Part shown: positions 16,028 to 31,617 of the stretch, one piece after another
Numbering within the stretch: position 1 is the stretch's first letter
Layout: the number at the start of each line of letters is the position of its first letter
Origin: Desulfobacterales bacterium
GTDB lineage: Bacteria > Desulfobacterota > Desulfobacteria > Desulfobacterales > CAFBRK01
Direction: 5' to 3'
NCBI GenBank assembly: GCA_021737185.1
Contig: JAIPEL010000004.1
Coordinates: 1-64,000, forward strand
DNA: 64,000 bases
Made by a program: the position numbers and the translations under genes
Notes under the pieces: model-generated
What the model was told of the DNA's origin: nothing
Seen by the model: only the letters and a program-made list of their open reading frames with translations
Database searches by the model: none

Positions 16028-16939
16028 TTGCCGGCAGAAAAACGGATGCGCCTTGACGAGGCCATAGACCGCTTCGTCGAAGACGGCAGCTCCGTGGCCT
16101 TGGGCACGGGGCTGGAGACCTGCATTCCCTTTTGCGCGGGACATGAGATGATCCGGCAAAAAAAGCAGAACCTCGTTCTGATCGGGCCGATCTCCGACAT
16201 CCTTTTCGACCAGCTGATCGGCGCCGGATGTGTCCGGAAGGTGCAAGCCGCCTGGGTGGGAAACGTCATTACCGGCTCCGGGTACAATTTCCGACGGGCC
16301 TATGAGCAGAAGCGGCTTGTCGTAGAAGACCACTCCAATCTGACCATGACCATGGCCCTGAGGGCCGGGGCCATGGGCGTGCCCTTCATGCCTTCGAAAA
16401 CGGCGCTGGGAAGCGATCTTCCCCGCAGCAATCCCGGTCTGAAGGCGATTGTTTGCCCTTTTACCGGCGAACGCCTGATGGCGGTTTCCGCCATCCGACC
16501 GGATGTCTGCATCATTGCCGTCCAGCGCGCCGACCCTTTCGGAAACGCCCACGCCTGGGGAAATCTGGGACTCAGCAAAGAGGCCTGCCTGGCCAGCGAG
16601 CATATCATTCTCACCGCCGAGCGCATCGTGGCCCCGGAGGTGATCGGTTCGGATCCGAACCGGGTGCTGACGCCGGCGTTTCGCGTCAGTGCGGTGGTCC
16701 ACGAGCCGTGGGGCGCGCATCCCTCGCCGATGCCCGGGTTTTACAACCGGGATCATCAGGCCTTTCTCGACTACCAGGAGGCGAGCCGGACAGCGGAAGG
16801 ATACAACCGGTGGAAAGCGACCTGGATCGACGGTGTTTCGGACCGCAAGAAATATGTGGATCGTCTGGGCTCCGAACGGATACAGTCCCTGGCCCTGAGA
16901 GAGCATTTGATCTCCGAACCGGCCGATTTCGGATACTGA
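16028..16939 (+). CDS. CoA-transferase subunit A (glutaconate CoA-transferase type)
   Basis: 303 aa. The frame is open far upstream over the GGDEF gene; I choose TTG at 16028 because GGAG lies 6 bases before it and gives MPAEKRMRLDEAIDRFVEDG, matching the GctA-family start (ATG at 16046 is the alternative). Subunit A supplies the CoA-pocket side: SVALGTGLETCIPF, AAWVGNVITGSGYNFRRA, MAVSAIRPDVCIIAVQRADP. It is paired with the B subunit seven bases on. Family enzymes move CoA between carboxylic acids; the substrate cannot be read from sequence. It stands first in the catabolic cluster, before a TRAP uptake system. Confidence 0.85.
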   Translation: MPAEKRMRLDEAIDRFVEDGSSVALGTGLETCIPFCAGHEMIRQKKQNLVLIGPISDILFDQLIGAGCVRKVQAAWVGNVITGSGYNFRRAYEQKRLVVEDHSNLTMTMALRAGAMGVPFMPSKTALGSDLPRSNPGLKAIVCPFTGERLMAVSAIRPDVCIIAVQRADPFGNAHAWGNLGLSKEACLASEHIILTAERIVAPEVIGSDPNRVLTPAFRVSAVVHEPWGAHPSPMPGFYNRDHQAFLDYQEASRTAEGYNRWKATWIDGVSDRKKYVDRLGSERIQSLALREHLISEPADFGY

Positions 16940-16946
16940 CGCGCCG

Positions 16947-17714
16947 ATGGCATCCTACACCTCACAGGAATTGATGGTCACCGCCGCCGCCCGCCATGTC
17001 GCAGACGGGGAAGTGGTCTTTGTCGGAATGCGCCTTCCCCTCCTGGGCTTCCTGCTCGCAAAGGGCACCCATGCACCGAACGCCGTCGGGATATTCGAAT
17101 TGGGCATCGTCCGGGACAGCGCCGCTCCGGCGCCGATTCTGACCATGGGAGATCTGCCGAACCTTTATCGGGCCAACTGGCTCGCCGACACCGGAGACGC
17201 CATGGCCCTGCTGCAGCAGGGGCGCGTCGACCTGAGCTTTATCGGTGGCGCCCAGGTCGACCTTTACGGGAATCTGAACACCACCTGCATCGGAGACCTT
17301 CAACTCCCCGAAACCCGGCTACCCGGAAGCGGGGGGGCATGCGACCTTGCCTGCCTGGCCGGCCGGCACATTCTGATCATGGCCCACCAACGGCGGCGGT
17401 TCGTGCCCCGGGTCGACTACATCACCTCTCCGGGCTACGGCGACGGCCCCGGCTGGCGGCGGCGCATGGGGCTTCCCAGGGGTGGTCCCAGCGCGGTGAT
17501 CACCACCCTGGGCTGTTTTTCTTTTGACCCGCGGAGCCGCCGGATGCGGCTGGAAACGATCCACCCGGGCGTGGCCCCGGAAACGATCCGGTCCGAAACC
17601 GGCTGGCCCATCGATCTTCCCGAAGCGCCGCCCGAAACAACGCCGCCCACCGAATTCGAATTGAAGGTGCTGCGCCGGTTCGATCCGCAAGGATACTGGA
17701 CGGGTAGGCGGTGA
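16947..17714 (+). CDS. CoA-transferase subunit B (glutaconate CoA-transferase type)
   Basis: 255 aa. The family signature FIGGAQVDLYGNLNTTCIGD, then LPGSGGACD and VDYITSPGYGDGPG closely follow GctB. Glu51 in GIFELGIV aligns with the catalytic glutamate of Acidaminococcus GctB (remembered alignment), which argues for real CoA transfer and not the hydrolase role of the related steroid-pathway IpdAB. It starts seven bases after subunit A, so the two are co-translated. Confidence 0.87.
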   Translation: MASYTSQELMVTAAARHVADGEVVFVGMRLPLLGFLLAKGTHAPNAVGIFELGIVRDSAAPAPILTMGDLPNLYRANWLADTGDAMALLQQGRVDLSFIGGAQVDLYGNLNTTCIGDLQLPETRLPGSGGACDLACLAGRHILIMAHQRRRFVPRVDYITSPGYGDGPGWRRRMGLPRGGPSAVITTLGCFSFDPRSRRMRLETIHPGVAPETIRSETGWPIDLPEAPPETTPPTEFELKVLRRFDPQGYWTGRR

Positions 17715-17734
17715 CGCCGGCGGCTCGATTTTGC

Positions 17735-17763
17735 TTGACAAAGTTTCATTGTAGCTGCAAAAT
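17735..17763 (+). promoter_or_regulatory. Candidate sigma-70 promoter for dctP
   Basis: TTGACA (17735-17740), 17-base spacer, CAAAAT (17758-17763). The spacer end holds the near-palindrome TTGTAGCTGCAA (17749-17760), a possible operator over the -10. The -35 is perfect and the -10 is weak. It would start a TRAP transcript separate from the CoA-transferase genes. Confidence 0.5.
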
Positions 17764-17849
17764 AGCTTCTTAAATCATCTTTGGTAAATGAACGATGTTT
17801 AGTGCCAGGGGGAGTGTGCAGAAACCAGCAGGCAAAAAAGGAGGCAACG

Positions 17850-18935
17850 ATGAGGCAAAAGAGTTTAATGATCCTGTCAGCGGTATTGGCGATCGCCTTT
17901 GTCCTGGGGGTCGGTCCGGCGATTGCGGCAGCACCTTCTCTTGACGCATGGAAGCCCGCCTTTGATCCATCCGGCGCCAAGTACAAGTGCATCGTGTCCA
18001 ACGTCTCCCACCCGGTGCTCAAGGGAGTTTACGCCGGCTTTGCCATTCGAGACGAGCTGTGGAAGCGGACAAACGGTCAAATCTACCTCGATTTCAAGCC
18101 GTTTTCCATGCTCGGCGGTGAAGTGGAGGTGCTCAACCAGCTGCAGATGGGTGCCATTCAGGGAATGGGCGTCAGCTCTGTCGCCTCGACCAATCTCGGC
18201 CCCCGGTTCGGCCTGATCAACCTGCCGTTTCTGGTCAACTCCTTTGAAAAGCTCGACAAGTTCGTGGCCAGCGGCAAGCTGTTCGATCACTATATGAACG
18301 CCATGGACCACCAGGGCATCATCGGCGTGGACATCACCGGCTACGGCAACTACGGATGGGCCACCACCCGGCCGGTGAAGAATCTGGAGGCTGCCAGGAA
18401 GGTCAAGTTCAGAACGGCAGAAGCCGCGGTCAACCAGCTCCTTTACAAGCAGTGGGGTCTGAACGCGGTGGTCATGCCCTGGCCCGACGTGCCGGTCGCC
18501 CTGAAGCAGGGGGTCATCGAGGGTCTGGACCACACCCCGAGCGTCTGTCACATCACCAAGAAGTTTGAAGTCGCCAAGTACTACACATACCTCGACTACG
18601 CCCAGGGGCTTTTTATCTGGATCTTCAACAAGGCCTGGTACAACAGCCTGCCCGCAGACCTGCAAACCATTTTCACCGAGACGGTCCACGATGTCTGCGC
18701 CGACATCCGGGAGCAGACCAAAATCCAGGAGGCCGTGGAGATCATGAAGGCCTCCAAGAGCGGCATCGAGTTCTACGCCCTTCCCGGGGATGACATGGCG
18801 TGGCTTAAAAAGCAGGGAGACGCGGTCCACGAGGAATACAAGGCGGAAATCAACAAGCTCTATTCAGGAGACACCTATCGCCCGGCTGACTTTCTCAAGG
18901 AAGTCCAGGACTACATGGGATATCAGCGGCAGTAG
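17850..18935 (+). CDS. dctP: TRAP transporter substrate-binding protein (DctP family)
   Basis: 361 aa from ATG 17850 behind AAAGGAGG. A signal peptide is clear: MRQKSLM, then a hydrophobic core ILSAVLAIAFVLGV and an Ala-rich cleavage zone near residues 26-28. The mature part has the DctP pattern including ARKVKFRTAEAAVNQLLY, with the Arg that clamps a substrate carboxylate in the family, and PDVPVALKQGVIEG. It works in the periplasm and passes an organic acid to DctQM. A strong hairpin follows it, as often between a highly expressed binding protein and its membrane partners. Confidence 0.92.
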   Translation: MRQKSLMILSAVLAIAFVLGVGPAIAAAPSLDAWKPAFDPSGAKYKCIVSNVSHPVLKGVYAGFAIRDELWKRTNGQIYLDFKPFSMLGGEVEVLNQLQMGAIQGMGVSSVASTNLGPRFGLINLPFLVNSFEKLDKFVASGKLFDHYMNAMDHQGIIGVDITGYGNYGWATTRPVKNLEAARKVKFRTAEAAVNQLLYKQWGLNAVVMPWPDVPVALKQGVIEGLDHTPSVCHITKKFEVAKYYTYLDYAQGLFIWIFNKAWYNSLPADLQTIFTETVHDVCADIREQTKIQEAVEIMKASKSGIEFYALPGDDMAWLKKQGDAVHEEYKAEINKLYSGDTYRPADFLKEVQDYMGYQRQ

Positions 18936-18950
18936 ACGGGATCGATCCAA

Positions 18951-18986
18951 AGAGAAAGGGGGCTTTTTTGCTGGCCCCCTTTCTCT
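18951..18986 (+). terminator. Intercistronic hairpin between dctP and dctQ
   Basis: AGAGAAAGGGGG (18951-18962), 12-base loop containing TTTTTT, then CCCCCTTTCTCT (18975-18986): 12 perfect base pairs. No T-run follows the 3' arm, so it is better read as an mRNA-stabilising or attenuating hairpin that lets more dctP than dctQM be made. Confidence 0.75.
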
Positions 18987-19022
18987 TGTGATGTCAACCA
19001 TACCGCCAAGAGGAACCAGCCC

Positions 19023-19526
19023 ATGATCGGCCGATTTTTCAAGTTCGTGGACCGGGCGTTGACCTTCTTCGAAGAATGGACCCTGTTCATCACCGTGATG
19101 GTCGCCCTGGTGGCCTTGTTTTTCAACGTCATTCTCCGCTACGGGTTCAATTATTCCCTGACCTGGTCCGAAGAGCTCGTCCGGGAGGTGATCATCTACA
19201 CCACCTTGATCGGCTGCTCGGCGGCGGTCAAGAACCGGTCCATGATCAAGATCGATGCATCGGTGCAGCTCTTTCCGAAAATGAAGGTGCCCCTGACCTT
19301 TTTCAGCAACCTGGTCACGTTGATCTTTTCGGTGATGGTGCTCTACCTGGGGTGGAAGCTTGCCGCCCTCCAGGTGCAGACCATGCAGAAAACCATCATC
19401 TTGCAGATTCCGCTGGTCTATATCTTTGCCATTCTTCCGTTGATGGGCGCAATGATGCTGATCCGCATCCTGCAGGTGTTTTACGAGGACATTGCCGAGC
19501 TTCGGGCCGGCAGGAAAACCGAGTAA
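19023..19526 (+). CDS. dctQ: TRAP transporter small membrane subunit (DctQ family)
   Basis: 167 aa with four hydrophobic segments (about 18-40, 50-70, 92-115, 133-152), normal for DctQ. The loop YGFNYSLTWSEELVREVIIY carries the family W-x-E-E pattern. It forms the membrane complex with DctM. The stop TAA at 19524-19526 is the first three bases of a TAAAATCGC-type repeat. Confidence 0.9.
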   Translation: MIGRFFKFVDRALTFFEEWTLFITVMVALVALFFNVILRYGFNYSLTWSEELVREVIIYTTLIGCSAAVKNRSMIKIDASVQLFPKMKVPLTFFSNLVTLIFSVMVLYLGWKLAALQVQTMQKTIILQIPLVYIFAILPLMGAMMLIRILQVFYEDIAELRAGRKTE

Positions 19527-19574
19527 AATCGCTGACGCGATAGTCATGCCGACGGCAGGGCCGGCGGCATGACT
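19524..19574. repeat. Composite hairpin element between dctQ and dctM
   Basis: First stem: ATCGC-TGAC-GCGAT, inside TAAAATCGC that includes the dctQ stop. Second stem: AGTCATGCCG (19542-19551) with CGGCATGACT (19565-19574), a perfect 10-bp match. The same two-part arrangement recurs at 45211-45296. Confidence 0.75.
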
Positions 19575-19603
19575 CCGGAGTCGGAAGCAAGGAGCCCCGT
19601 TTT

Positions 19604-20896
19604 ATGGAAACGAGCCACGTGATCATCCTGCTGATCCTGCTGGGCTGCATGGCGTCTTACATTCCCGTTTTCATGTGCCTTTTTTTCACGGCGGTTCTGG
19701 GCTTTGTCCTTTTCACCGACCTGCCCCTGCTGCTGCTGGTTCAGACCCTCCTGCGGAGCATGGACAACTTTGCCCTGGTCGTGGTGCTGTTTTTCATCCT
19801 CTGCGGCAACATCATGACCGCCGGGACCATTGTCGACAAGCTGATCAAGGTGGCCAATGTGCTCGTGAGCTGGCTGCCCGGTGGGCTGGGCATGGCCGGT
19901 GTGCTCGCCTGCGGGCTGTTCGGGGCCATCTCCGGCTCCACCGTGGCCACGGTGGTGGCCCTGGGGGGGTTCATGATCCCGGCATTGATCGACAACGGAT
20001 ACCCTCAGAAATATACCCTCGGGCTGATGACCACCTCCCCCAATCTGGGGGTCATCATCCCCCCCAGCATCGGCATGATCCTTTACAGCATGATCAGCAA
20101 CGTTTCGCTGGAAGGGCTGTTTTTGACCGGTTTCGTGCCGGGGGTTCTGATCATGTTCGGGGTCTGCGCATACTCGTTTGTCATTTTCCGCACGAAGACG
20201 GAAATTACGCGGATGCCGTTTCCCGGATTCGGCGGTCTGATCCGGGTTCTCAAGGAAGGGTTCTGGTCGCTGATGCTGCCGATCATCATCTTCGGCGGGA
20301 TTTTTTCCGGGGCTTTCACCGCAAACGAGGCGGCGGTGGTCGCCTGTATCTACGCTTTCATGGTGGAGCTGTTCATCCACCGGTCGATCCGCTTCGGGGA
20401 GGTGAAGAAGATCACCGTCAGCTCCGCGGTGACATCGGCGACCCTGCTGATCATCGTCGCCGGCGCCTCCTGCTTCGGTCGGCTCCTGACCCTGGAAAAC
20501 ATCCCCGGCGCGATTACCGAGACCGTGCTTTCCGCCATCGATTCGCCGCTGCTTTTTTTGATCGCCATGAATATTATGCTGCTCTTTGTCGGCATGTTCA
20601 TGGACATCATTTCGGCCACCCTGATCCTGGGGCCGGTATTTATCCCCATGCTCGGCGCGTTCGGCATCGATCCGATGCACTTCGGGCTGATCATGACGGT
20701 CAACCTGGCCATCGGCTACTGCACTCCGCCCATGGGGGTCAGTCTTTACATCACCGGAGCCATCGCCAACAAGGACCTGATCTACGTCTCCCGGGCGGTG
20801 ATTCCGTTCATCATTATCCAGTTGATCGTCCTGGGCATCATGACCTACATGCCGAATCTGGTGCTCTGGCTGCCCAGAGCCATGGGGTTTCTGTAG
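19604..20896 (+). CDS. dctM: TRAP transporter large membrane subunit (DctM family)
   Basis: 430 aa, about 12 hydrophobic segments, the channel-forming and ion-coupled part of the transporter. Typical stretches are GLFGAISGSTVATVVALGGF, TTSPNLGVIIPPSIGMILYS and LAIGYCTPPMGVSLYITGAI. AAGGAG lies upstream. It is followed directly by the large word array at 20903. Confidence 0.92.
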   Translation: METSHVIILLILLGCMASYIPVFMCLFFTAVLGFVLFTDLPLLLLVQTLLRSMDNFALVVVLFFILCGNIMTAGTIVDKLIKVANVLVSWLPGGLGMAGVLACGLFGAISGSTVATVVALGGFMIPALIDNGYPQKYTLGLMTTSPNLGVIIPPSIGMILYSMISNVSLEGLFLTGFVPGVLIMFGVCAYSFVIFRTKTEITRMPFPGFGGLIRVLKEGFWSLMLPIIIFGGIFSGAFTANEAAVVACIYAFMVELFIHRSIRFGEVKKITVSSAVTSATLLIIVAGASCFGRLLTLENIPGAITETVLSAIDSPLLFLIAMNIMLLFVGMFMDIISATLILGPVFIPMLGAFGIDPMHFGLIMTVNLAIGYCTPPMGVSLYITGAIANKDLIYVSRAVIPFIIIQLIVLGIMTYMPNLVLWLPRAMGFL

Positions 20897-20902
20897 TAGG
20901 GT

Positions 20903-21190
20903 TCAGATGTTCCGGGTTCGGAAGTTCAGAGGTTCAGGGGTTCAGAGGTTCGGGGGTTCAAAGGTTAAAAAGGTTCAGAGGTTGAGGGGTTCAGAGGTTA
21001 AAAATGTTCAGAGGTTCAAGGGTTCAGAGGTTGAAGGAAAGGCCGATTCTATAACCCGGAACCCGGAACCCAGAACCCCGAACCCAGAACCCGGAACCCG
21101 GAACCCAGAACCCAGAACCCAGAACCCAAAACCCAGAACCCAAAACCCAGAACCCAAAACCCAGAACCCGGAACCCCGAACCCGGAACCC
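20903..21190. repeat. Opposed short-word array (GGTTCAGA / AACCCNGA)
   Basis: Arm 1 (about 20903-21041) repeats GGTTCAGA-type words; arm 2 (about 21056-21190) repeats the 7-mer AACCC(A/G/C)(G/A)A. Arm 2 is close to the reverse complement of arm 1, so the transcript could fold into a long imperfect hairpin. The open frame across it encodes a Pro-Glu-Arg-Thr-Asn periodic peptide and is a by-product, not a gene. No terminal T-run. It may end dctM transcription in both directions. Confidence 0.85.
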
Positions 21191-21224
21191 CGCAGGCCGG
21201 CCGCTGTTTTCTCCGATTTTTTTC

Positions 21225-21254
21225 TTGACTTCGAGAGCCCCCGTTTCCTATAGT
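21225..21254 (+). promoter_or_regulatory. Candidate sigma-70 promoter for the ACT-protein gene
   Basis: TTGACT (21225-21230), 18-base spacer, TATAGT (21249-21254). The -10 region begins a run of direct repeats (TATAGTTA, TATAGTTA, TTGTAGTT through 21277) that could bind a regulator. ATTGTAGTTG at 21269-21278 differs by one base from ATTGTAGCTG at the dctP promoter. Confidence 0.5.
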
Positions 21255-21432
21255 TACATTATAGTTAAATTGTAGTTGTTTGGCCGCCGGCCGCCGGCTC
21301 CGCCGAGCAACAAAACTCGCCGTTTCCGCTCCCACGGGAACATTTTGAAAGCCGCTTTTGCCGCCCGGCCGGAGCCGGGCCCGCGGCAAACACGGGCGAA
21401 CCCTCGCCTTTCCACTTGAAAGAGGAGGCCCC

Positions 21433-21879
21433 ATGAAACTGAAACAAATATCGATCGCCATTGAAAACGATCCCGGTCGGCTGTTCGAGGTCACCGAGGC
21501 CCTGGGTGACGCCGGGATCAATCTGCGGGCGTTGACCTTGGTGGAGAGCGGCGGCGGTTTCGGGGTGCTGCGGATTCTCGTCTCGGATGTGGCCCGCACC
21601 CGCCGGCTGCTCATGGAAAAAAACATGCCGGCCAGGGTTCACGAGGTGATCGCGGTCGAAATCGAGGACAAGCCCGGTCAGCTGGCAAAGCTGCTCAAGC
21701 CGCTGCACGCCAGCGGGGTGAACGTAATCTACACCTACGCTTTTGTGCGCATGTCGACCGGCAACGCCGTGATGATCTTTCGCTTCAGCGACAATGACAA
21801 GGCGGCACAGATCCTCGAGCAAAGCGGCATCAAACTGCTCGACGCCGAGTCCTTCGGCATCCTCGAAGCAGAGGATTAG
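21433..21879 (+). CDS. Double ACT-domain protein
   Basis: 148 aa from ATG 21433 behind GAGGAGG; the frame upstream of that is not used. Two ACT repeats: residues 1-70 (QISIAIENDPGRLFEVTEAL) and 72-145 (IAVEIEDKPGQLAKLLKPLH). Each has the beta-alpha-beta start with the D/E-x-P-G-x-L turn that binds amino acids. Stand-alone proteins of this type are often encoded beside aryl-CoA or phenylacetate-CoA ligases, as remembered, and may be amino-acid sensors. No DNA-binding domain is seen. Role here is unknown. Confidence 0.85.
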   Translation: MKLKQISIAIENDPGRLFEVTEALGDAGINLRALTLVESGGGFGVLRILVSDVARTRRLLMEKNMPARVHEVIAVEIEDKPGQLAKLLKPLHASGVNVIYTYAFVRMSTGNAVMIFRFSDNDKAAQILEQSGIKLLDAESFGILEAED

Positions 21880-21892
21880 AGCGCCCCAAGGG

Positions 21893-21918
21893 CGGTCCGG
21901 CCCCCAATAGGCGGACCG
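21893..21918. promoter_or_regulatory. Hairpin between the ACT gene and the next gene
   Basis: CGGTCCG (21893-21899) and CGGACCG (21912-21918) form a 7-bp perfect stem with a 12-base loop, 30 bases before the next start. No T-run. It could be a processing or attenuation hairpin. Confidence 0.5.
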
Positions 21919-21947
21919 AAGGATGTGTTTATCAGCAAAAGGGGGGC

Positions 21948-22898
21948 ATGATGAGCGAGAATAAGACGTTTGAACCCCGAAAGTTCGCCGTCGTCGGTGC
22001 GGGCCCGGTGGGCTGTATCGTGGCCGCGTTTTTGTCAAAGGGCGGATACGAGGTGGCCCTTTGCGACGTGGTGCCGGAGCTGCTCGAGCCGGCCGCAAAA
22101 AGGGGGATCATCATCGAAGGGGCGGAAACCCTTCAGCAGACGGTTGCCAGGACCTGCCTCAGCGTCGACGAGCTGGCAGACGTGAAGCCCGATGTGATCT
22201 TTGTCACAGTCAAGGCCAACGCCCTGCCGCTGATTGCCTCGGCCATCGAAGAGTTCCATCGGCCGGAAATGATGCTGGTCAGCTGGCAGAACGGCATCGA
22301 TACCGAGCTGGAGCTGGCCCGGCCCCTGGGGCGGGAGTCGGTCCTGCGCGCCGTGGTCAATTACGGCTGCGGGCTGAAAGCCCCCGCCCATGTGGTGATG
22401 CCCTTTCACCACCCGCCCCACAGCATCCAGGAGCTGGAAGCTCCGGCTGCGGGCGCGGCAAAGGCCATCGCCAAGGTCCTGTCCGACTGCGGGCTTCAGA
22501 CGGCGCGCACGGACCAGATCGTTTCCATGGTCTGGCGCAAGACGATCATGAACGCTTCCATGAACCCGGTGTGCGCGGCCACCGGCCTGACCATGTCCCA
22601 GGTCATGGGCGATCCCATCGTGTTTCAGATCGTCGATGCCCTGGTCAAGGAATGCATCCGTGTGGCCCGGGCAAACGAAATCAACGTCGGGTGGGACTAC
22701 TACCCGTACGCGATTTCCTACATGAAAAACGCGGGAAACCATAAACCGTCCATGCTCATGGACATCGAAAACCGGCGCAGAACCGAGATCGACTACATCA
22801 ACGGCAAATTCGTGGAATACGGAGAGCAGGCCGGCGTCAAGACCCCCTACAATCAAACGCTGCGTTCGCTGGTCAAAGGCCTCGAGTCGCAGCTCTGA
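21948..22898 (+). CDS. Ketopantoate reductase family 2-oxoacid reductase (PanE/ApbA-like)
   Basis: 316 aa. The N-terminal Rossmann domain has VVGAGPVGCIVAAFLSKGGY with GxGxxG; the C-terminal helical domain includes VWRKTIMNASMNPVCAATGL, containing the conserved K-x-x-x-N-x-x-x-N-P pattern of the family (Lys and Asn that bind the 2-oxoacid). These enzymes reduce 2-oxoacids with NAD(P)H, classically ketopantoate, but family members make (R)-2-hydroxyacids. Placement between the TRAP/ACT genes and the HgdC-type activator suggests a catabolic 2-hydroxyacid dehydrogenase more than pantothenate synthesis (inference). Confidence 0.8.
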   Translation: MMSENKTFEPRKFAVVGAGPVGCIVAAFLSKGGYEVALCDVVPELLEPAAKRGIIIEGAETLQQTVARTCLSVDELADVKPDVIFVTVKANALPLIASAIEEFHRPEMMLVSWQNGIDTELELARPLGRESVLRAVVNYGCGLKAPAHVVMPFHHPPHSIQELEAPAAGAAKAIAKVLSDCGLQTARTDQIVSMVWRKTIMNASMNPVCAATGLTMSQVMGDPIVFQIVDALVKECIRVARANEINVGWDYYPYAISYMKNAGNHKPSMLMDIENRRRTEIDYINGKFVEYGEQAGVKTPYNQTLRSLVKGLESQL

Positions 22899-22915
22899 AA
22901 ACCAACGGGAAGATC

Positions 22916-23710
22916 ATGACAGGAAGCTCATTGTTTGTCGGCGTGGATGTCGGCGCATCGCGGACCAAGGCCGCCGTCCTCGACGCCCAAAAACACCTGC
23001 TCGGATGGGCGGTCGAAAAATCCGGGATCGATTTTTCCGCCACGGCAGACCGGTGCCTGCAAACGGCGCTTCAAATGGCCGGGGCCGATGCAGCGGCGGT
23101 GTCCAAGACGTTTTCAACGGGCTACGGGCGAAAGAACGTTTCGTATTCTCAGGACACCAGGACCGAAATCGGATGCCACGCCAAGGGGTGCTATCATTAT
23201 TTCCCCTTTGCCATCACGGTCATCGATATCGGGGGGCAGGACAACAAGGTCATCAAGCTCGACGATGCGGGCCGTCGGATCAGTTTCAAGATGAACCGCA
23301 AATGCGCTGCCGGCACCGGCGCGTTTTTGGAGGAGATGTCTCCCCGGCTCGACATCCCGCTGGAGGCCATGGACGATCTGGCACGCCGGTCGACGGACAT
23401 GGTCAAGCTGGGTAGTTTCTGCACCGTGTTTTCTGCCACAGAGGTACTGGAAAACATCCGAAACGGCCGAAAGGTGGAAGATATCGTCAAGGGGCTTTTC
23501 TATTCGGTGATCAAGCGGGTCATGGAAATGGACGCGATGACCGAAAAGGTGGTCATGACCGGGGGGGTGGTGGCCAACAACCCTTATCTGGTTATCATGG
23601 CCGAAGAGATTCTGGGCCGATCGATACTGGTGCCGGAGCATCCGCACCTGACCGGCGCCATCGGGGCAGCCTTGTATGCGATCGAAGACATCGGCGAAAC
23701 TCACCGCTGA
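22916..23710 (+). CDS. ATP-dependent activator of 2-hydroxyacyl-CoA dehydratase / benzoyl-CoA reductase type (HgdC/BadF family)
   Basis: 264 aa, normal for HgdC. The ASKHA ATPase fold is clear: FVGVDVGASRTKAAVLD (phosphate loop 1), VIDIGGQDNKVIKL (phosphate 2) and VVMTGGVVANNPYL (adenosine). Cys130 in NRKCAAGTGAFLE and Cys169 in GSFCTVFSATEV are the pair that, from two subunits, hold the bridging [4Fe-4S] cluster. It uses ATP to push one low-potential electron into its partner, here most likely the protein encoded at 23924. Confidence 0.93.
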   Translation: MTGSSLFVGVDVGASRTKAAVLDAQKHLLGWAVEKSGIDFSATADRCLQTALQMAGADAAAVSKTFSTGYGRKNVSYSQDTRTEIGCHAKGCYHYFPFAITVIDIGGQDNKVIKLDDAGRRISFKMNRKCAAGTGAFLEEMSPRLDIPLEAMDDLARRSTDMVKLGSFCTVFSATEVLENIRNGRKVEDIVKGLFYSVIKRVMEMDAMTEKVVMTGGVVANNPYLVIMAEEILGRSILVPEHPHLTGAIGAALYAIEDIGETHR

Positions 23711-23733
23711 GATGCAGAGGGCGCAGAGATTGG

Positions 23734-23847
23734 AAATGCCTAAAATGCCTAAAATGAGCTTAAATGCCTAAACTTTTGGAAAACTGCCCGTTTGATATGA
23801 AAGCCGGAGCGAAGCGACACCACTATTATAGGCATTTTAGGCATTTA
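23734..23847. repeat. Opposed word array (AAATGCCT / AGGCATTT)
   Basis: Arm 1 at 23734-23773 has four copies of AAATGCCTA-type words; arm 2 at about 23829-23847 reads AGGCATTTTAGGCATTT. The arms can pair across a 55-base loop. It begins just after GCAGAGGGCGCAGAG, whose complement word CTCTGCGCCCTC also occurs near 35439. It lies between the activator and its likely partner gene. Confidence 0.8.
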
Positions 23848-23923
23848 TCATGATCTTAACGGATTTTCATTCAACACAAAGTGGTGAACCGCTAGCACAC
23901 TCAATCTCAACGGGGGAAAATTC

Positions 23924-25171
23924 ATGACAGAAGAAAAAAAAGTCGTCATCAAGAAACTCAATTCGGCAAAAACCATCGGCAAATTCATGGCCGATTATTA
24001 CTATGGTCTGGACCATGCCGCGAAAACCGGAGAAAAGAAAGTGGCCTGGTGCACCAGCGTGGGGCCGGCGGAAATCCTCAGGGCGATGGATTTTGACGTC
24101 TATTTTCCCGAAACCCACAGCGCCATGATCGGCGCCACCCGTATGGCGGCTGATCTGATTCCCAAGGCCAACGCGGTCGGGTATTCGCCGGATATCTGCT
24201 CTTATCTGACAGCCGACATCGGTGGATATCTCGAAGGGGTTTCCCCTTTGGCCAAGGCTTTCGAGGGCATCGAAGGCCCTCCCAAACCCGACGTGCTCGT
24301 GTTCAATACCAACCAGTGCCGGGACGTTCAGGACTGGTTCAGTTACTATGGAAGAGAATACAATGTCCCGGTGGTCGGGGTTCATTCCTACAAGGGCGTC
24401 GAAGAAGTCGAAGACGCCCACATCCAGTCCATCTCCGAACAGATGAAGGAAATGATCCCGACCCTCGAAGAGGTGGCCGGGAAAAAGTTCGATATCGACC
24501 GCCTGCGGGAGGTGCTGGCGCTTTCCCGGGAGTGCTCGGACCTGTGGAAGGAGGTGCTCGATACCGGGGCTGCCGTTCCGTCTCCCATCACCTTTTTCGA
24601 CGGCACCACGCTCATGGGACCGGCCGTGGTGGGGCGGGGCACCCCCGAAACCAACGAAGTCTATCGGATCCTTCTCGCAGAACTCAAAGAGCGCGTTGCA
24701 AACGGGGAAGGCGCGGTGGAAGACGAGCGCTACCGGATCTACTGGGACGGCATGCCGGTATGGGGGCGCCTGAGCGCCCATGCCAAGCTCTTTGCCGGAT
24801 TGAAGACCAATGTCCTGGCCTCCACTTACTGCAACAGCTGGATCTTTTCCGCCCTGGATCCAGCCGAACCTTTCGAAAGCATGGCCCGGGCATACACCGA
24901 ACTGTTCATCGTGCGTGCAGACGAGCCCAAAGAGAGCTACATCAAAAACATGCTCGATTTTTTCAAAGTGGACGGGATTATCTACCACGACGCAAAGACC
25001 TGCCCGGCGAACACCAACTGTCGCTACGGAATGCCCCAGCGCCTTCAGGAAGAGACCGGCATCCCCTTTCTGGTCATCAACGGCGATCTCAACGACCTGC
25101 GGTTGATCTCCGACGAGCAGACCAAAACCAATGTCGAGGCGTTCATCGAGCAGCTGGCGGAATCAAAATGA
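23924..25171 (+). CDS. 2-hydroxyacyl-CoA dehydratase / benzoyl-CoA reductase family subunit (BcrB/HgdB-like), alone
   Basis: 415 aa. Cysteines at 43 (AWCTSVGPAE), 92 (SPDICSYLTADIG), 132 (NTNQCRDV), 204, 303, 360 and 366 (TCPANTNCRYG). C43, C92, C132 and C360 are good Fe-S ligand candidates. The stretches KFDIDRLREVLALS, PSPI and VVGRGTPETNEVY recall BcrB of class I benzoyl-CoA reductase, as remembered. Family enzymes use an ATP-energised electron for radical dehydration of 2-hydroxyacyl-CoA or ring reduction. They are usually two-subunit; no second subunit lies in this window. It could be a homodimer (compare the double-cubane-cluster proteins) or pair with a protein encoded elsewhere. Start ATG 23924. 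Confidence 0.85.
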   Translation: MTEEKKVVIKKLNSAKTIGKFMADYYYGLDHAAKTGEKKVAWCTSVGPAEILRAMDFDVYFPETHSAMIGATRMAADLIPKANAVGYSPDICSYLTADIGGYLEGVSPLAKAFEGIEGPPKPDVLVFNTNQCRDVQDWFSYYGREYNVPVVGVHSYKGVEEVEDAHIQSISEQMKEMIPTLEEVAGKKFDIDRLREVLALSRECSDLWKEVLDTGAAVPSPITFFDGTTLMGPAVVGRGTPETNEVYRILLAELKERVANGEGAVEDERYRIYWDGMPVWGRLSAHAKLFAGLKTNVLASTYCNSWIFSALDPAEPFESMARAYTELFIVRADEPKESYIKNMLDFFKVDGIIYHDAKTCPANTNCRYGMPQRLQEETGIPFLVINGDLNDLRLISDEQTKTNVEAFIEQLAESK

Positions 25172-25176
25172 CAGCT

Positions 25177-25271
25177 TGTGTTTCGTGTTTCGTGTTTGGT
25201 GTTTCGTCCGAGATGGAAAGCATGGCGGCGCCGCTGGCCAAAAACACTGAACACCAAAAACCAAACACTGT
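25177..25271. repeat. Opposed word array (GTGTTTC / AACACCAAA)
   Basis: Arm 1 at 25177-25208 repeats GTGTTTCGT and GTGTTTGGT; arm 2 at 25240-25271 reads AAAACACTGAACACC, then AAAAACCAAACACTG. The two can pair. It fills the gap between the dehydratase-like gene and the acyl-CoA synthetase gene, ending 18 bases before the next start codon. Confidence 0.8.
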
Positions 25272-25288
25272 TTTTTAGAGGAGAAGAT

Positions 25289-27367
25289 ATGCTCGATTCA
25301 TTGTTCAACCCCAAAAAGGTCGCCGTCATCGGCGCCTCGTCCAAGGAACTGCACATCGGCAATCGGGTGATCAAAAACCTGATCGATTTCGGGTTCAAGG
25401 GGGAGATCTACCCGATCAATCCCAAGGCCGATGAGATCCGGGGCATTGCCGCCTTCAAGTCGATCGCGGACGCCCCAGACGGCATCGACGTGGTGCACAT
25501 GGTCATTCCGGCCAAGTTCGTTCCCCAGGCCATGGAAGACTGCGGAAAGAAGGGGGTCAAGAACGTCATCATCAACTCCGGCGGGTTTTCAGAAACCGGT
25601 CCGGAAGGTGCGGCGATCGAAGAGGCGTTTCTCGAACAGGCCAAAAAATACGGCATCCGGGTATTCGGTCCCAACTGCCAGGGGATCATCAACACCGACC
25701 CAAAGGTGCGGGCCTACTGCAATTTTACCTTCACCTTCCCGGACCCGGGCGCGATTTCCATCGTGGCCCTCTCCGGCGGCGTGGCCGAAGTGATCCACCA
25801 GGCGTTTTCCGCCATGGGGGTCGGCACTCGCATTTACGCCTCCAACGGCAACGCCTGTGACATCACCATCCCGGAACTGATCCGCTACCTGGGCGACGAG
25901 CCAGGCACCCATGTCATCGTCACCTACGTGGAGGGACTGAAGGATCCGGCGGGGTTTTTGGCGGCCTGCACCGAGGTGGCGGCCAAAAAGCCGATTTTGG
26001 CCATGAAGGCCGGCCGCACCAAGGAAGGGGCAAAGGCGGCGGCTTCGCACACCGGCGGCCTGGCCAAAGAGGACATTGCCACCGACCTGATCTTTGAAAA
26101 GGCCGGCGTTCTTTCCTTCCGGGACGAAGGAGAGCTCATCCAGGCCGCCGTGGCGTTTGCCGCCGAGCCGATCCCTCGGGGCAACCGGGTGGGCATCATC
26201 ACCAACACCGGCGGCCCGGCCGTGATCGGCACCGACATCATGGCCGCCGCCGGTCTTACCCTGCCGCCGCTTTCGGGAAAAACCGAGCGGGTGCTCAAAG
26301 AAACCCTTTTTGCCGAGGCGTCGGTGGCCAACCCCGTGGACGTGCTGGCCACCGGAACCGCCGAACACTACCGGGCGTGCCTCGACGCCATGATGGAGGA
26401 CGACAATTTCGACGGTGTCTTCGTAAACTTCGTCACCCCTTTTTTCGTCGACACCGACAGCATTGCCCGGGAAATCGCCGAAGTCCACCGCCAAAAGAAA
26501 AAGCCGCTGGTCTGCAACCTGATGACCGACCGCCGCCAGTGGACCGAAACCGTCCGTATCCTCGCAGACGCCGGCGTGCCGTGTTTTGCGCTGCCCGGCG
26601 AAGCGGCCCGGGCCATGTCCGCCCTGGTCCGGTATCGGCAGATTCTGGACCGGGAAAAAGCCGAGATCAAACCCGTTGCCGACGCCGACACCGACAAGGC
26701 ATTGCAGCTTCTGGACCGGGCGAAATCCGCCGGCCGAAGCATGCTTCTTGCAGACGAGGTGTACGGCATTCTGGAGGCATACGGCTTCGACGTTCCAAAA
26801 TGGAGGCTGGCCGAGGACCCCGCGTCGGCGCAAAAGGCCGCCGGGGAGATCGGGTTTCCGGCGGTTCTCAAGGCAGACGCCCCCTCCATCGTCCACAAGA
26901 GCGATGCGGGCGGGGTTGTCCTGGGACTTTCCGACGCCGCGGCCGTCTTCAAGGCTGCAGAAAAGATGCAAAAGAACCTGTCCGCGCCGGATCTTCGATT
27001 CTTCGTGCAGCGGCAGCTGCCTCCCGGACTTGAACTGATTTTAGGCGCAAGAGCCGAGCAGGGGCTCGGCCACGCCGTGGTGTTCGGTCTGGGCGGGATC
27101 TTCGTGGAAGTTCTCAAGGATGTGCGCTTTTGCCTGACGCCGGTGAGCCCGGCAGAAGCGCGGAGAATGCTTTCTTCGATCAAGGGGGCGGCCCTGCTCG
27201 ACGGCGTGCGCGGCCAAAAGGGAGTGGACAAGGAATCGATCGTCGATGCCGTTGTCAGGCTTTCCCAGCTCCTGAGCGACCTGCCGCAGATAAAAGAGGT
27301 GGATCTCAACCCGGTGTTTGCCTTCCAGGACCGCGTGGCCGTGGCAGACGCCCGGATCCTTTTGTAA
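25289..27367 (+). CDS. ADP-forming acyl-CoA synthetase (fused alpha-beta)
   Basis: 692 aa from ATG 25289 with AGAGGAGA upstream. Domains: CoA-binding Rossmann (about 1-125, VAVIGASSKE), succinyl-CoA-ligase-like (about 145-290) with the phosphohistidine site H254 in AASHTGGLAKED, the linker ligase region (about 300-460), and an ATP-grasp domain (about 490-690, PAVLKADAPSIVHKSDAGGV). It interconverts acyl-CoA + ADP + Pi with acid + ATP + CoA, so in a fermenting or sulfate-reducing cell it can harvest ATP from a pathway end product or activate an acid. Substrate unknown. The frame upstream through the word array is not used. Confidence 0.92.
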   Translation: MLDSLFNPKKVAVIGASSKELHIGNRVIKNLIDFGFKGEIYPINPKADEIRGIAAFKSIADAPDGIDVVHMVIPAKFVPQAMEDCGKKGVKNVIINSGGFSETGPEGAAIEEAFLEQAKKYGIRVFGPNCQGIINTDPKVRAYCNFTFTFPDPGAISIVALSGGVAEVIHQAFSAMGVGTRIYASNGNACDITIPELIRYLGDEPGTHVIVTYVEGLKDPAGFLAACTEVAAKKPILAMKAGRTKEGAKAAASHTGGLAKEDIATDLIFEKAGVLSFRDEGELIQAAVAFAAEPIPRGNRVGIITNTGGPAVIGTDIMAAAGLTLPPLSGKTERVLKETLFAEASVANPVDVLATGTAEHYRACLDAMMEDDNFDGVFVNFVTPFFVDTDSIAREIAEVHRQKKKPLVCNLMTDRRQWTETVRILADAGVPCFALPGEAARAMSALVRYRQILDREKAEIKPVADADTDKALQLLDRAKSAGRSMLLADEVYGILEAYGFDVPKWRLAEDPASAQKAAGEIGFPAVLKADAPSIVHKSDAGGVVLGLSDAAAVFKAAEKMQKNLSAPDLRFFVQRQLPPGLELILGARAEQGLGHAVVFGLGGIFVEVLKDVRFCLTPVSPAEARRMLSSIKGAALLDGVRGQKGVDKESIVDAVVRLSQLLSDLPQIKEVDLNPVFAFQDRVAVADARILL

Positions 27368-27435
27368 AGACGAATTTCGAAGGCGGATGCCGCTCACTGT
27401 AAACTGGTTTTTTACAACCTTGAAGGGGTAACACA

Positions 27436-28983
27436 ATGACGGCCTGGCTCAATTTAGGAGAAATCCTCAAGGTCAACGCGAAGAAGTACCCCGATACCGT
27501 GGCGCTGAAGGACCGGGAGCGAAGTTTCAGCTATCCCGCGGTCAACAAGCGGGTGAACCGACTCTCCCACGGCCTGTTGTCCCTCGGGCTGAAGAAGGGA
27601 GACAAGGTCGCCGTTCTTCTGGAAAACAGCATAGAGATCATCGAACTTTACCTGGCCGCGGCCAAAACCGGCATCGTCATCGTGCCGATCAACTTCCGTC
27701 TGGTCGGGGGCGAGGTGGCCTACATCGTCAACGACTCCGACGCCAAGGCACTGATCGTTCATGACATGTTCGTCGAAAACGTCGAGCCGGTCCGCTCGGA
27801 ACTGGCCGATATCTCCCCGGAGCGGTTCATCGTCGTGGGGGAAAAAAAAGACGGCTACGCCCCTTACGAGGCGATGATTGCAGGTGCGTCGGAAAAAGAG
27901 CCGCCGGGTTCGGTCGCCCCGGAAGACACCTGGATCCTGATCTACACCTCCGGAACCACGGGCAAGCCCAAGGGGGTGGTCCGCTCCCATGCGTCCCACA
28001 TCGCTTTTTATCTGATCAACGCCGTTGACTTCGGATTCACGGAAAGCGACATCTGCCTGAATGTCATGCCGCTTTGCCACATCAACTCAACCTATTTTAC
28101 CTTTACGTTTTTGTACATCGGCGGGAGCGTATACGTCCATCCGGCCCGGTCCTTCCGCCCGGAGCAGATCCTGGAGATCGTCGAGCGGGAAAGGGTCACC
28201 TTCATCTCCCTGATTCCGACCCATTACAACCTGATCCTCAACTGCTCCGAAGAGGCCAAGCAGCGGGACCGCAGCTCCATTAAAAAGCTGCTCTGTTCGT
28301 CTGCACCGGTGCGAAGAATCATGAAACAGGCGATCATGGAGTTCTTCCCCGGCGTCGAGCTCTACGAGGGGTACGGGTCGACCGAGGCGGGAATCGTCAC
28401 CGTCCTCAAGCCCCAGGATCAGATGAGAAAGCTCGGATCCATCGGCTTCGAGTCTTTGGGGACCGATTTTGTCAAGATCCTCGACGAGGACGGAAACGAG
28501 GTGCCCACCGGAGAGGTGGGAGAGATTTACTCCCGCGGGCCGATGCTCTTCGACGAATACTACAAGCTTCCCGAGAAGACCGCCGCCTCCTTCAAAGACG
28601 GGTGGTTTTCCGCGGGAGACCTGGGCCGCAAGGACGAAGAGGGCTACTATTACATCGTCGACCGCAAAGACAACATGATCATCACCGGTGGAGAGCACGT
28701 TCACCCCAGCGAGGTGGAAGAGGTCATCGGCAGCCACGAATGCGTGTTCGATTGCGCGGTCATCGGCCTTCCGGATGAAAAATGGGGCGAGCGCGTCGTC
28801 GCCGTGGTGGTCCCCAAAAAAGAAGTCGACGCAGAGGAGATCATCAAATGCTGCCGGGAGAAAGTCGCCGGCTACAAGCGCCCCAAGGAGATCGTTTTTC
28901 TCAAGGAAGACGAGATGCCCCGGACGGCCACCGGAAAGATCCTGCACCGGAAGCTGCGGGAGAAATTCGGCGGACGGTGCTGA
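27436..28983 (+). CDS. AMP-forming acyl-CoA synthetase
   Basis: 515 aa, ANL superfamily. A3 phosphate loop IYTSGTTGKPKGVVRSHAS, A5 YEGYGSTEAG, A7 WFSAGDLGRKDEEG, A8 DRKDNMIITGGEHVHPSEVE and the A10 lysine in TATGKILHRKLRE are all intact. It activates a carboxylic acid through an acyl-adenylate to its CoA thioester. No transmembrane segment. It is the third CoA-activating system within 12 kb, 69 bases after the ADP-forming enzyme. Substrate cannot be read. Confidence 0.92.
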   Translation: MTAWLNLGEILKVNAKKYPDTVALKDRERSFSYPAVNKRVNRLSHGLLSLGLKKGDKVAVLLENSIEIIELYLAAAKTGIVIVPINFRLVGGEVAYIVNDSDAKALIVHDMFVENVEPVRSELADISPERFIVVGEKKDGYAPYEAMIAGASEKEPPGSVAPEDTWILIYTSGTTGKPKGVVRSHASHIAFYLINAVDFGFTESDICLNVMPLCHINSTYFTFTFLYIGGSVYVHPARSFRPEQILEIVERERVTFISLIPTHYNLILNCSEEAKQRDRSSIKKLLCSSAPVRRIMKQAIMEFFPGVELYEGYGSTEAGIVTVLKPQDQMRKLGSIGFESLGTDFVKILDEDGNEVPTGEVGEIYSRGPMLFDEYYKLPEKTAASFKDGWFSAGDLGRKDEEGYYYIVDRKDNMIITGGEHVHPSEVEEVIGSHECVFDCAVIGLPDEKWGERVVAVVVPKKEVDAEEIIKCCREKVAGYKRPKEIVFLKEDEMPRTATGKILHRKLREKFGGRC

Positions 28984-28988
28984 AGAAA

Positions 28989-29098
28989 AGTCAAATGGTC
29001 AATTGGTGGATTGGTCAAATGGGGTATGCGGTTAGTCCTTGCAGGGCCAATCAACGAAAGCCGAATTGACGAATCAACCAATCAACCAATCAACCAAA
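28989..29098. repeat. Opposed word array (TGGTCAAT / CAATCAAC)
   Basis: Arm 1 (28989-29023) reads TCAAATGGTCAATTGG, then TGGATTGGTCAAATGG; arm 2 (29048-29098) repeats CAATCAAC and ends three bases before the thiolase ribosome-binding site. The arms are imperfect reverse complements. Confidence 0.8.
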
Positions 29099-29113
29099 AC
29101 GGAGGTCCACGGC

Positions 29114-30304
29114 ATGCTGACAAAAGCCTACATCCCCTACGGCGGATACTACAGCTCCCCCTTTGCCCGGTGGCAGGGCAGCCTAGCCAATGAAAACGCC
29201 ATCGTGTTGGGCGCCAACACGGCCAAGCGCTGGATGGAGTCAAAGAACCTGGATCCGAAGATGCTCGAATACCTCTTTTTGGGCATCACCGTCGGACAGC
29301 ACTACGTCTTTTACGGCAGCACCTGGGCTGCCCATCTGCTGGGGGCCGGGCACATTCCGGGCGTGACGCTGATGCAGGCCTGCTCGACGTCTACCACCTG
29401 CATCTTCCAGGCGGCGAGCGGGGTGGAAACCGGCCTGTACACCCACCCCTTTGTCCTTGCCGTCGACCGCTGCTCCAACGGCCCGCATACCGTCTGGCCC
29501 AATCCCAAGGGGCCGGGGGGACAGGTCGAATCCGAAGACTGGGTCATGGACCATTTCGGGTTCGACCCTTCGGCGAAAAACGCCATGATCCAGACCGCCG
29601 AGAACGTGGCCGCCGAAAACGGGATCACCCGAGAAGAGTGCGATGCGGTGGCCCTGCGCCGCTACCAGCAGTACACCGATGGCCTCGAAGACGACCGGGC
29701 CTTTCAAAAGCGGTACATGTTTCCGGTCGAAGTGCAGGTGTCCAAGAAGAAGATCTCCACCATCGAGGAGGACGAGGGCGTGATGGAAACCACCGAAGAG
29801 GGGCTTTCCCGCCTCAAGCCGTTGCTTCCAAACGGGGTGCACACCTTCGGCGCCCAGACCCACCCGGCCGACGGCAATATCGGCATGCTCGTCACCACCC
29901 GCGACCGGGCCAAGGAACTGAGCAAGGATCCGGCCGTGGAGGTGCAGGTGCTTTCCTACGGGTATCACCGGGCCAAGTCGGGCTTCATGGCCGCGGCGGT
30001 GGTGCCGGCCTGCCGGATGGCCCTGGAAAAGGCAGGGGTGGACATCGCCGATGCCAAGGTCATCAAGACCCACAACCCGTTTTCGGCCAACGACATTTTC
30101 ATGGCCAAGGAATTCGGCATCGACGTGATGGGCTTCAACAACTACGGAAGCTCCATCGTATTCGGCCATCCCCAGGGACCCACCGCGGGCCGGTGCATCA
30201 TTGAAGGCATCGAAGAGGCGGCCATGGCCGGCGGAGGCTACGTCCTCTTCGGCGGCTGCGCCGCAGGAGACACGGCAGGGGCGCTGCTGCTGAAGGTGGG
30301 TTGA
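29114..30304 (+). CDS. Thiolase-superfamily acyltransferase
   Basis: 396 aa from ATG 29114 behind GGAGG. The thiolase fold is supported by Cys90 in TLMQACSTSTTCIFQAASG (acyl-accepting cysteine), KTHNPFSANDIFMA (position of the NEAF motif), His352 in FGHPQGPTAGR, and Cys382 in LFGGCAAGDTAGA (position of the CxG motif). It would cleave a 3-oxoacyl-CoA with CoA, or condense two acyl-CoAs. The motifs are variant (PFSAND, GGCAAG), so it is a divergent member and the substrate is unclear. Last gene of the + strand catabolic cluster. Confidence 0.85.
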   Translation: MLTKAYIPYGGYYSSPFARWQGSLANENAIVLGANTAKRWMESKNLDPKMLEYLFLGITVGQHYVFYGSTWAAHLLGAGHIPGVTLMQACSTSTTCIFQAASGVETGLYTHPFVLAVDRCSNGPHTVWPNPKGPGGQVESEDWVMDHFGFDPSAKNAMIQTAENVAAENGITREECDAVALRRYQQYTDGLEDDRAFQKRYMFPVEVQVSKKKISTIEEDEGVMETTEEGLSRLKPLLPNGVHTFGAQTHPADGNIGMLVTTRDRAKELSKDPAVEVQVLSYGYHRAKSGFMAAAVVPACRMALEKAGVDIADAKVIKTHNPFSANDIFMAKEFGIDVMGFNNYGSSIVFGHPQGPTAGRCIIEGIEEAAMAGGGYVLFGGCAAGDTAGALLLKVG

Positions 30305-30454
30305 TTGGTTGATTGGTCGAATGGTTGATTGGTCGATCGGCCGAATGGTCAATTGGTCAAATAGTCGAATGGTTAAATGGGAAAGACCGTCTACGGAATT
30401 CTTTCTGCCGATTTAACCAATCAACCATTTAACCATTTGGCCAATCAACCAATC
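30301..30454. repeat. Opposed word array (TTGATTGG / CCAATCAA) between convergent genes
   Basis: Arm 1 (30301-30380) repeats TTGATTGGT, CGAATGGT and CAATTGGT words; arm 2 (30411-30454) repeats ATTTAACCAATCAACC-type words. It separates the thiolase gene and pheA, which run toward each other, and is well placed to stop transcription from both sides. It overlaps the last codons of both genes slightly. Confidence 0.85.
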
Positions 30455-31509: not shown

Positions 31510-31523
31510 GGGTCACCTTTCGA

Positions 31524-31562
31524 ATGCCTAAAATGCCTGAAATGACTAAAGTGCCTAAAATT
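31524..31562. repeat. Single-arm word array (AATGCCTAAA) between aroF and pheA
   Basis: AATGCCTAAAATGCCTGAAATG, in copies varied by one base, then ACTAAAGTGCCTAAAATT. It is the same word as in the array at 23734, 7.8 kb away, but without an opposed arm. It lies 15 bases upstream of the pheA start on the minus strand. Confidence 0.7.
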
Positions 31563-31617
31563 GTGGAATCCCTTCGCTCGATCCAATTATACAGCAGTAT
31601 TTCCATGGCAGGAGTTT

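Follow-up and report, generated by a model that had tools for sequence, protein, structure and literature searches.

Which acid would be broken down by a gene cluster that couples an ATP-dependent activator to one iron-sulphur subunit of the 2-hydroxyacyl-CoA dehydratase type, and could that subunit work alone, when to our knowledge every characterised relative of the dehydratase needs two kinds of subunit? The cluster occupies positions 16028–30304 of the window, by which we mean the whole 64,000-nucleotide stretch analysed here, part of contig C3 of a 4.54 Mb Desulfobacterales genome (91% complete). All of its genes are on the forward strand, in the order gctA, gctB, dctP, dctQ, dctM, ACT_8, panE, activator, HGD-D (the candidate dehydratase), ADP-forming synthetase, AMP-forming ligase and thiolase. 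A conserved set of these genes recurs in many anaerobes of the ocean floor and sediments, both bacteria and archaea, and looks like an unrecognised route for phenylalanine-type acids. We put at about 0.68 the probability that its core is a module for the anaerobic breakdown of phenylalanine-type aromatic acids to benzoyl-CoA by way of a single-subunit radical dehydratase. Such a module may fill a published gap in the degradation of these acids by sulfate reducers, and the organisms concerned drive carbon turnover in marine sediments. Judged from genes and a predicted structure, the pathway appears well supported and what is new would be the dehydratase variant.

The HGD-D gene (23924..25171, +; PF06050, 3e-66) encodes a protein whose closest solved chain by sequence is HadB (8e-57), followed by MbdO and BzdO. 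An AlphaFold2 model of this protein (pLDDT 86.8, pTM 0.89), on which the structure comparison is based, gave TM-scores of 0.89 to HadB (3O3M_A), 0.85 to MbdO and BzdO, 0.74–0.78 to the double-cubane proteins (DCCP) and 0.66–0.69 to beta-type chains. HGD-D is thus predicted to be a HadB-like catalytic alpha subunit, and not the BcrB/HgdB-like subunit named in an earlier reading of this DNA (the sequence-only reading). All 104 orthologues keep Cys92, Cys132 and Cys360, which line up with the three cluster ligands of HadB; Ser45 and Glu63 are as in HadB, and Val135, the HadB residue, stands at the site of His131, the catalytic acid/base residue of BzdO (PMC11971306); MbdO, also class I, has Phe there, so the histidine is not universal. 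Directly upstream, the ATP-dependent [4Fe-4S] activator (22916..23710, +) is of the BcrAD/HgdC/HadI type, with a BcrAD_BadFG domain, 202 bits to TIGR00241 (over the cut-off) and a match of 7e-51 to HadI (4EHT). From these features we infer that HGD-D removes water from a 2-hydroxyacyl-CoA. An alpha subunit with three Cys ligands and a co-encoded activator, both typical of such dehydratases, are present, whereas the second PF06050 subunit of the alpha-beta heterodimer (PMC11574389) was not found.

A PF06050 search of the 91% complete window genome detected neither a second HGD-D-type subunit nor an N-type subunit of class I benzoyl-CoA reductases (BCRs); it returned two genes, HGD-D and a DCCP on contig C67. 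In 20 genomes searched, the orthologue is the only PF06050 gene in four that are 93–98% complete (G031, G040, G038 and G053), which bears out the claim that there is one dehydratase subunit only, and the complete genome of Desulfonema magnum (G241) holds the orthologue and one other PF06050 gene (408 bits) that falls in the DCCP-type group. A beta-type gene adjoins 20 of 22 two-subunit alpha paralogues of the same class (~37% identity to the window HGD-D), whilst none was seen beside members of the single-subunit family. A tree groups the family in a single clade with full support, the long branches to HadB, MbdO and BzdO leaving its root unplaced, and an identity gap (orthologues 51–83%, paralogues ~39% and lower) sets it apart. 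As far as sequence can tell, the dehydratase presumably acts without a beta subunit, as a homodimer. The DCCP/YjiM-like gene on contig C67 (L001), the sole other PF06050 gene of the window genome, has its own activator.

The family also carries additional cysteines. Cys43, Cys204 and Cys303 are 98–100% conserved, where HadB has Ser, Asn and Pro, and Met277 is invariant in a 51-sequence alignment; Cys43 is common to HGD-D and MbdO. In a profile alignment with 11 DCCPs, Cys43, Cys92, Cys132, Cys303 and Cys360 pair with five DCCP cysteines and the sixth position is Met277. Double-cubane positions, as placed by this alignment and by resemblance to the ligand spacing of BzdN (36/73/100/263/293/327; PMC11971306), are therefore occupied by Cys at five of six sites in the single-subunit family versus three in two-subunit relatives. 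At positions 43, 277 and 303 the 22 two-subunit alpha paralogues all carry Ile/Val, Leu/Ile and Thr/Ala, respectively; since these paralogues, which have a beta subunit, possess no Cys at 43 or 303 and no Met277, the extra potential ligands accompany beta loss. They could bind a larger cluster. In BzdO, however, Trp46 and substrate take up the corresponding space (PMC11971306), so the extra cysteines may line the substrate pocket instead. A 2024 review describes component D as an alpha-beta heterodimer in which the second cluster stores an electron, the heterodimer being held to let 2-hydroxyacyl-CoA dehydratases store and recycle it (PMC11574389). The fullest version of our reading, which we regard as tentative and rather doubtful, is that one polypeptide does the work of both alpha and beta with a larger or altered double-cubane-like Fe-S cofactor (extra ligands Cys43, Cys303, and Met277 or Cys204), and also completes, for sulfate reducers, the path from phenylacetate and phenylpyruvate through reductive carboxylation, phenyllactyl-CoA and cinnamoyl-CoA to benzoyl-CoA. 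A cross-phylum family without beta, with two further double-cubane Cys positions, makes the origin of two-subunit radical enzymes from double-cubane ancestors directly testable.

HGD-D resembles DCCP/DCCP-R (E. coli YjiM/YjiL) in being a one-gene component with an activator and in its five of six double-cubane cysteines. It differs in sharing only ~20% identity, in the invariant Met277 at the sixth position, in its HadB-like active site and in its catabolic context; membership of the DCCP is ruled out, with 63.5 bits to the NCBIfam model NF040772 (double_cubane) against a cut-off of 350 and five of the six cysteines. A second double-cubane-like family (L174–L179) occurs in relatives, with BzdN-like cysteine spacing.

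To survey the extent of the gene set, the window genes were compared by tblastn with 75 orthologous loci that each had 7 kb or more of flanking sequence on either side (two sub-samples share some genomes). Near the orthologue we found the activator at 69 loci, panE at 62, the ligase at 59, the ADP-forming synthetase at 51, the thiolase at 38 and ACT at 22, a set far beyond chance, whilst dctP (6 of 75) and gctA (3 of 75) are add-ons outside the core. The proposal that all these genes form one set thus holds for panE, the activator, HGD-D, acd, lig and thl, with ACT, whose neighbourhood is kept across relatives, but not for the TRAP and CoA-transferase genes. Within the class, an orthologue is present in ~87 of 389 genomes. 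In a genome scan that yielded 352 relatives, the best 80 of these 352 (65–81% identity) include Desulfobacterales, Anaerolineae, Spirochaetes, Ignavibacteria and Thermoplasmatota; contigs of metagenome-assembled genomes may be misbinned, though the Chloroflexi and archaeal versions nonetheless show gene orders of their own. Among named relatives, the nearest to have every gene of the set, and in unchanged order, is an Olavius algarvensis Delta 3 associated bacterium (L114). In the Thermoplasmatota loci (L122, L126, L137, L141, L144 and L149), PanE accompanies the dehydratase, the synthetase and the ligase; at most of these loci a divergent activator is encoded on the other strand, and a PadH-like NADH reductase is often present.

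The genes that recur around the orthologue point to aromatic acids. They are IorA (TIGR03336 over cut-off), IorB, a PaaK-like ligase, a 3-hydroxyacyl-CoA dehydrogenase/enoyl-CoA hydratase (HAD-ECH) fusion, aldehyde:ferredoxin oxidoreductase, 6-hydroxycyclohex-1-ene-1-carbonyl-CoA dehydrogenase (TIGR03201 over cut-off) and BamA (TIGR03200 over cut-off). Across the 389 genomes of the class, bamA is present in 71 of 87 with an orthologue and in 52 of 302 without (odds ratio 21, p = 1e-28, uncorrected for shared ancestry), and it lies 12–16 kb from the orthologue in 20 genomes. The window genome itself encodes, on contig C160, BamB (1264 bits to 4Z3W), BamA, an SCP-x type thiolase, an enoyl-CoA hydratase, the HAD-ECH fusion (66% identical to that of Desulfococcus multivorans), IorAB and PaaK (82% identical to a cluster representative). 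Relatives such as L075 have much the same genes in one stretch with the dehydratase. Several Anaerolineae/Chloroflexi loci (among L097, L100, L106, L119 and L131) unite bamA, the 6-hydroxycyclohexenecarbonyl-CoA dehydrogenase, the HAD-ECH fusion, the dehydratase module, a CBS-ACT protein and an AOR-family enzyme.

Published proteomics adds a second line of evidence. In D. multivorans DSM 2059 (G005) the orthologue is found at 2.791 Mb. The genes there run IorA, IorB, ACT, PanE, activator, HGD-D, two ligases (one of them FadD4), DctPQM and two-component genes, followed on the adjoining stretch by thiolase, hydratase fusion and Hbd. This locus agrees with a pair of neighbouring clusters at 2.77 Mbp, of which the TRAP proteins, FadD4, Hbd5, hydratase C24740 and thiolase C24750 were formed specifically on phenylacetate and phenylpyruvate (PMC5109826); locus tags were assigned here by gene order and may be off by about one gene. 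Phenyllactate supports growth of the strain, which has neither padB nor padEFGHI, and how it converts these acids to benzoyl-CoA was termed "unclear" (PMC5109826). Its clusters share with the window orthologous HGD-D, activator, PanE, ACT, ligase, TRAP and thiolase genes; unlike in the window, GctAB and the ADP-forming synthetase are not beside HGD-D. The window thiolase is 67% and 68% identical to C24650, assigned to cinnamate/3-phenylpropanoate degradation, and C24750, respectively (PMC5109826). The same study proposed that hydratase, dehydrogenase and thiolase lead to a phenylglyoxylate route, the end of which it left unclear (PMC5109826), a reading that is chemically less natural.

From the genes and this link we infer the substrate, direction and order of steps, as well as the homodimer. 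Arylpyruvate would pass through aryllactate, aryllactyl-CoA and a cinnamoyl-type CoA to benzoyl-CoA and acetyl-CoA. After uptake of the aromatic acid by the TRAP transporter, the PanE/ApbA-family 2-oxoacid reductase (21948..22898, +; Pfam above cut-off), a proposed arylpyruvate reductase, would interconvert arylpyruvate and (R)-aryllactate, and the AMP-forming ligase (27436..28983, +; AMP-binding; 70% identity to one of the two D. multivorans ligases), or the CoA-transferase where present, would yield aryllactyl-CoA. The activator, with ATP, would put one electron into HGD-D, whose [4Fe-4S] cluster (Cys92/132/360, with an open fourth site) would strip the 2-hydroxyl via a ketyl radical to give the cinnamoyl-type CoA and regain the electron. 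Hydratase and 3-hydroxyacyl-CoA dehydrogenase from contig C160, together with the thiolase (29114..30304, +; Thiolase_N and Thiolase_C over cut-off), a proposed benzoylacetyl-CoA thiolase that retains the catalytic Cys, His, His and Cys motifs (QACST, THNPF, GHPQ and GGCAAGD), would then release benzoyl-CoA and acetyl-CoA, the former being passed to the Bam enzymes. The ADP-forming acyl-CoA synthetase (25289..27367, +; ATP-grasp_5/CoA-binding domains) would probably gain ATP from the aryl-CoA end product. A weaker, speculative extension has phenylacetate entering by PaaK, with IorAB as a carboxylase forming phenylpyruvate; equally speculatively, IorAB and PaaK could form a parallel oxidative branch, the synthetase turning arylacetyl-CoA into acid and ATP. 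Acids derived from tyrosine and tryptophan are possible substrates. The scheme offers a concrete, isotopically testable answer to the route left open by the D. multivorans proteogenomics.

Compared with the best-studied dehydratases, HadBC/HadI of C. difficile ((R)-2-hydroxyisocaproyl-CoA dehydratase) and FldABC/FldI of C. sporogenes (phenyllactyl-CoA dehydratase), the window system shares a PF06050 catalytic subunit with three cluster cysteines and the Ser/Glu of HadB, a BcrAD-type activator, and a 2-oxoacid reductase and CoA activation in one cluster. This is the 2-hydroxyacyl-CoA logic recognised in the sequence-only reading, which fold, active site, activator and conserved panE all support. 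It differs from both in having no beta subunit and in its invariant extra Cys43, Cys204, Cys303 and Met277, from FldABC in having a class I CoA-transferase or ligases in place of an FldA-type transferase, and from both again in that its product would go to beta-oxidation and benzoyl-CoA rather than to reduction to arylpropionate. In the openly searchable literature, most subscription papers being outside the search, we found no description of a one-subunit 2-hydroxyacyl-CoA dehydratase; a 2026 benzene study notes in passing that another sulfate reducer has a single FldB-like gene (30% identity) (PMC13416013).

Several points weigh against the module as we propose it. The best PDB matches of PanE carry a ketopantoate reductase annotation. 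The orthologue is found without bamA in 16 genomes, some of them incomplete, and divergent orthologues (~54–65% identity) in L048 (9397), L058, L060 and L061 are solitary, without panE and ligase. Genome G050, which we take to be D. toluolica Tol2 (the 5.2 Mbp genome in PMC5109826 is consistent with this), yielded no orthologues of HGD-D, thiolase or PanE, and Tol2 is treated as a phenylacetate/phenylalanine degrader (PMC5109826). Sulfate reducers must therefore have more than one route, and Tol2 rules out that the module is required for phenylacetate degradation in all of them. Finally, the authors of the D. multivorans study take the HGD-D region as converting phenyllactate to phenylpyruvate, and their main text is silent on detection of the HGD-D protein itself (PMC5109826).

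Could HGD-D and its activator instead be an ATP-dependent reductase of aromatic rings (benzoyl-CoA type) or of enoyl-CoA, in effect a one-subunit class I BCR? The homology to BzdO and MbdO, the Cys43 shared with MbdO and the linkage to the ring-opening genes bamA and had would suit this, and class I BCRs (BzdNO-PQ, MbdON-PQ) do have a homologous catalytic subunit (TM 0.85) and an activator. Yet HadB is the nearer structure, Val135 takes the place of BzdO His131 just as in HadB, bamA occurs in the absence of the HGD-D gene in 52 genomes, and the conserved panE linkage fits no role in ring reduction. Reduction of an aromatic thioester, as the sequence-only reading had allowed, is unlikely because BamB and BamA are encoded in the same genome, and we hold a ring or enoyl-CoA reductase to be quite improbable. 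Class I BCRs have four different subunits, two of PF06050 type and two of activator type, where the cluster has one of each: with no N-type subunit, one activator gene instead of two, no His131 equivalent and a BamB orthologue in the genome, membership of that class is ruled out.

That the dehydratase acts on another 2-hydroxyacyl-CoA (2-hydroxyisocaproyl-, 2-hydroxyisovaleryl- or a further non-phenyl acid) is unlikely, though slightly less so than ring reduction. The closest solved relative, HadB, is a 2-hydroxyisocaproyl enzyme, the substrate is unreadable from sequence, and in 16 genomes the module comes without bamA; set against this are the linkage to thiolase, IorAB, PaaK and benzoyl-CoA genes, and the expression of the D. 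multivorans clusters specifically on phenylacetate and phenylpyruvate. The acid need not be "unknown", as had been supposed, because gene context and published proteomics indicate phenylpyruvate/phenyllactate and related aromatic acids. Least probable of all, and very much so, is an ordinary two-subunit enzyme with an unrecognised partner encoded elsewhere. The window genome is 91% complete and a subunit of another fold would escape a PF06050 search, but four genomes of 93–98% completeness have a sole PF06050 gene, D. magnum has only a DCCP-type gene besides HGD-D, and the beta-type gene adjoining nearly all two-subunit paralogues was not seen beside this family.

At the upstream end of the cluster, the lineage-specific GctA-like CoA-transferase subunit (16028..16939, +; Pfam CoA_trans; probable start 16046) matches glutaconate CoA-transferase 1POI chain A at about 1e-37 to 8e-37, and the GctB-like subunit (16947..17714, +) matches chain B at 1e-48. 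GctB Glu51 is matched in the alignment by the Glu in the 1POI_B motif IVESGL, as had been claimed of its catalytic Glu; that this Glu is the catalytic residue of glutaconate CoA-transferase is established knowledge. The TRAP genes follow: the solute-binding protein DctP (17781..18935, +; 67% identity to DctP of the D. multivorans phenylacetate/phenylpyruvate cluster, PMC5109826), the small permease DctQ (19023..19526, +) and the large permease DctM (19604..20896, +), all three above Pfam cut-offs. The earlier inventory (TRAP, GctAB, PanE, HgdC-type activator, one Fe-S subunit, two synthetases and thiolase) was right in its members and coordinates, with Pfam matches above cut-offs, but it missed the ACT_8 domain-pair protein (21433..21879, +; PF19571, 7e-20), a member of the conserved set and a probable aromatic amino acid sensor.

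Three of the listed open reading frame starts are probably wrong: that of the synthetase (25178, more likely 25289, because the listed GTG sits within a GTGTTTC repeat), that of the thiolase (29039, rather ~29114) and possibly that of GctA (16046 instead). Short tandem repeats of 7–9 bp (for example AACCCAG x20, GGTTCAGA, GGTCGATT) occupy several intergenic gaps, at 20900–21190, 23734–23772, 25178–25207, 29072–29097 and 30299–30374, one of them yielding the spurious GTG start of the synthetase. Beyond the cluster, at 30445–32463 on the reverse strand and convergent with the module, lie a chorismate mutase/prephenate dehydratase with an ACT domain and a DAHP synthase, placing phenylalanine biosynthesis next to the proposed catabolic module for phenylalanine-type acids.

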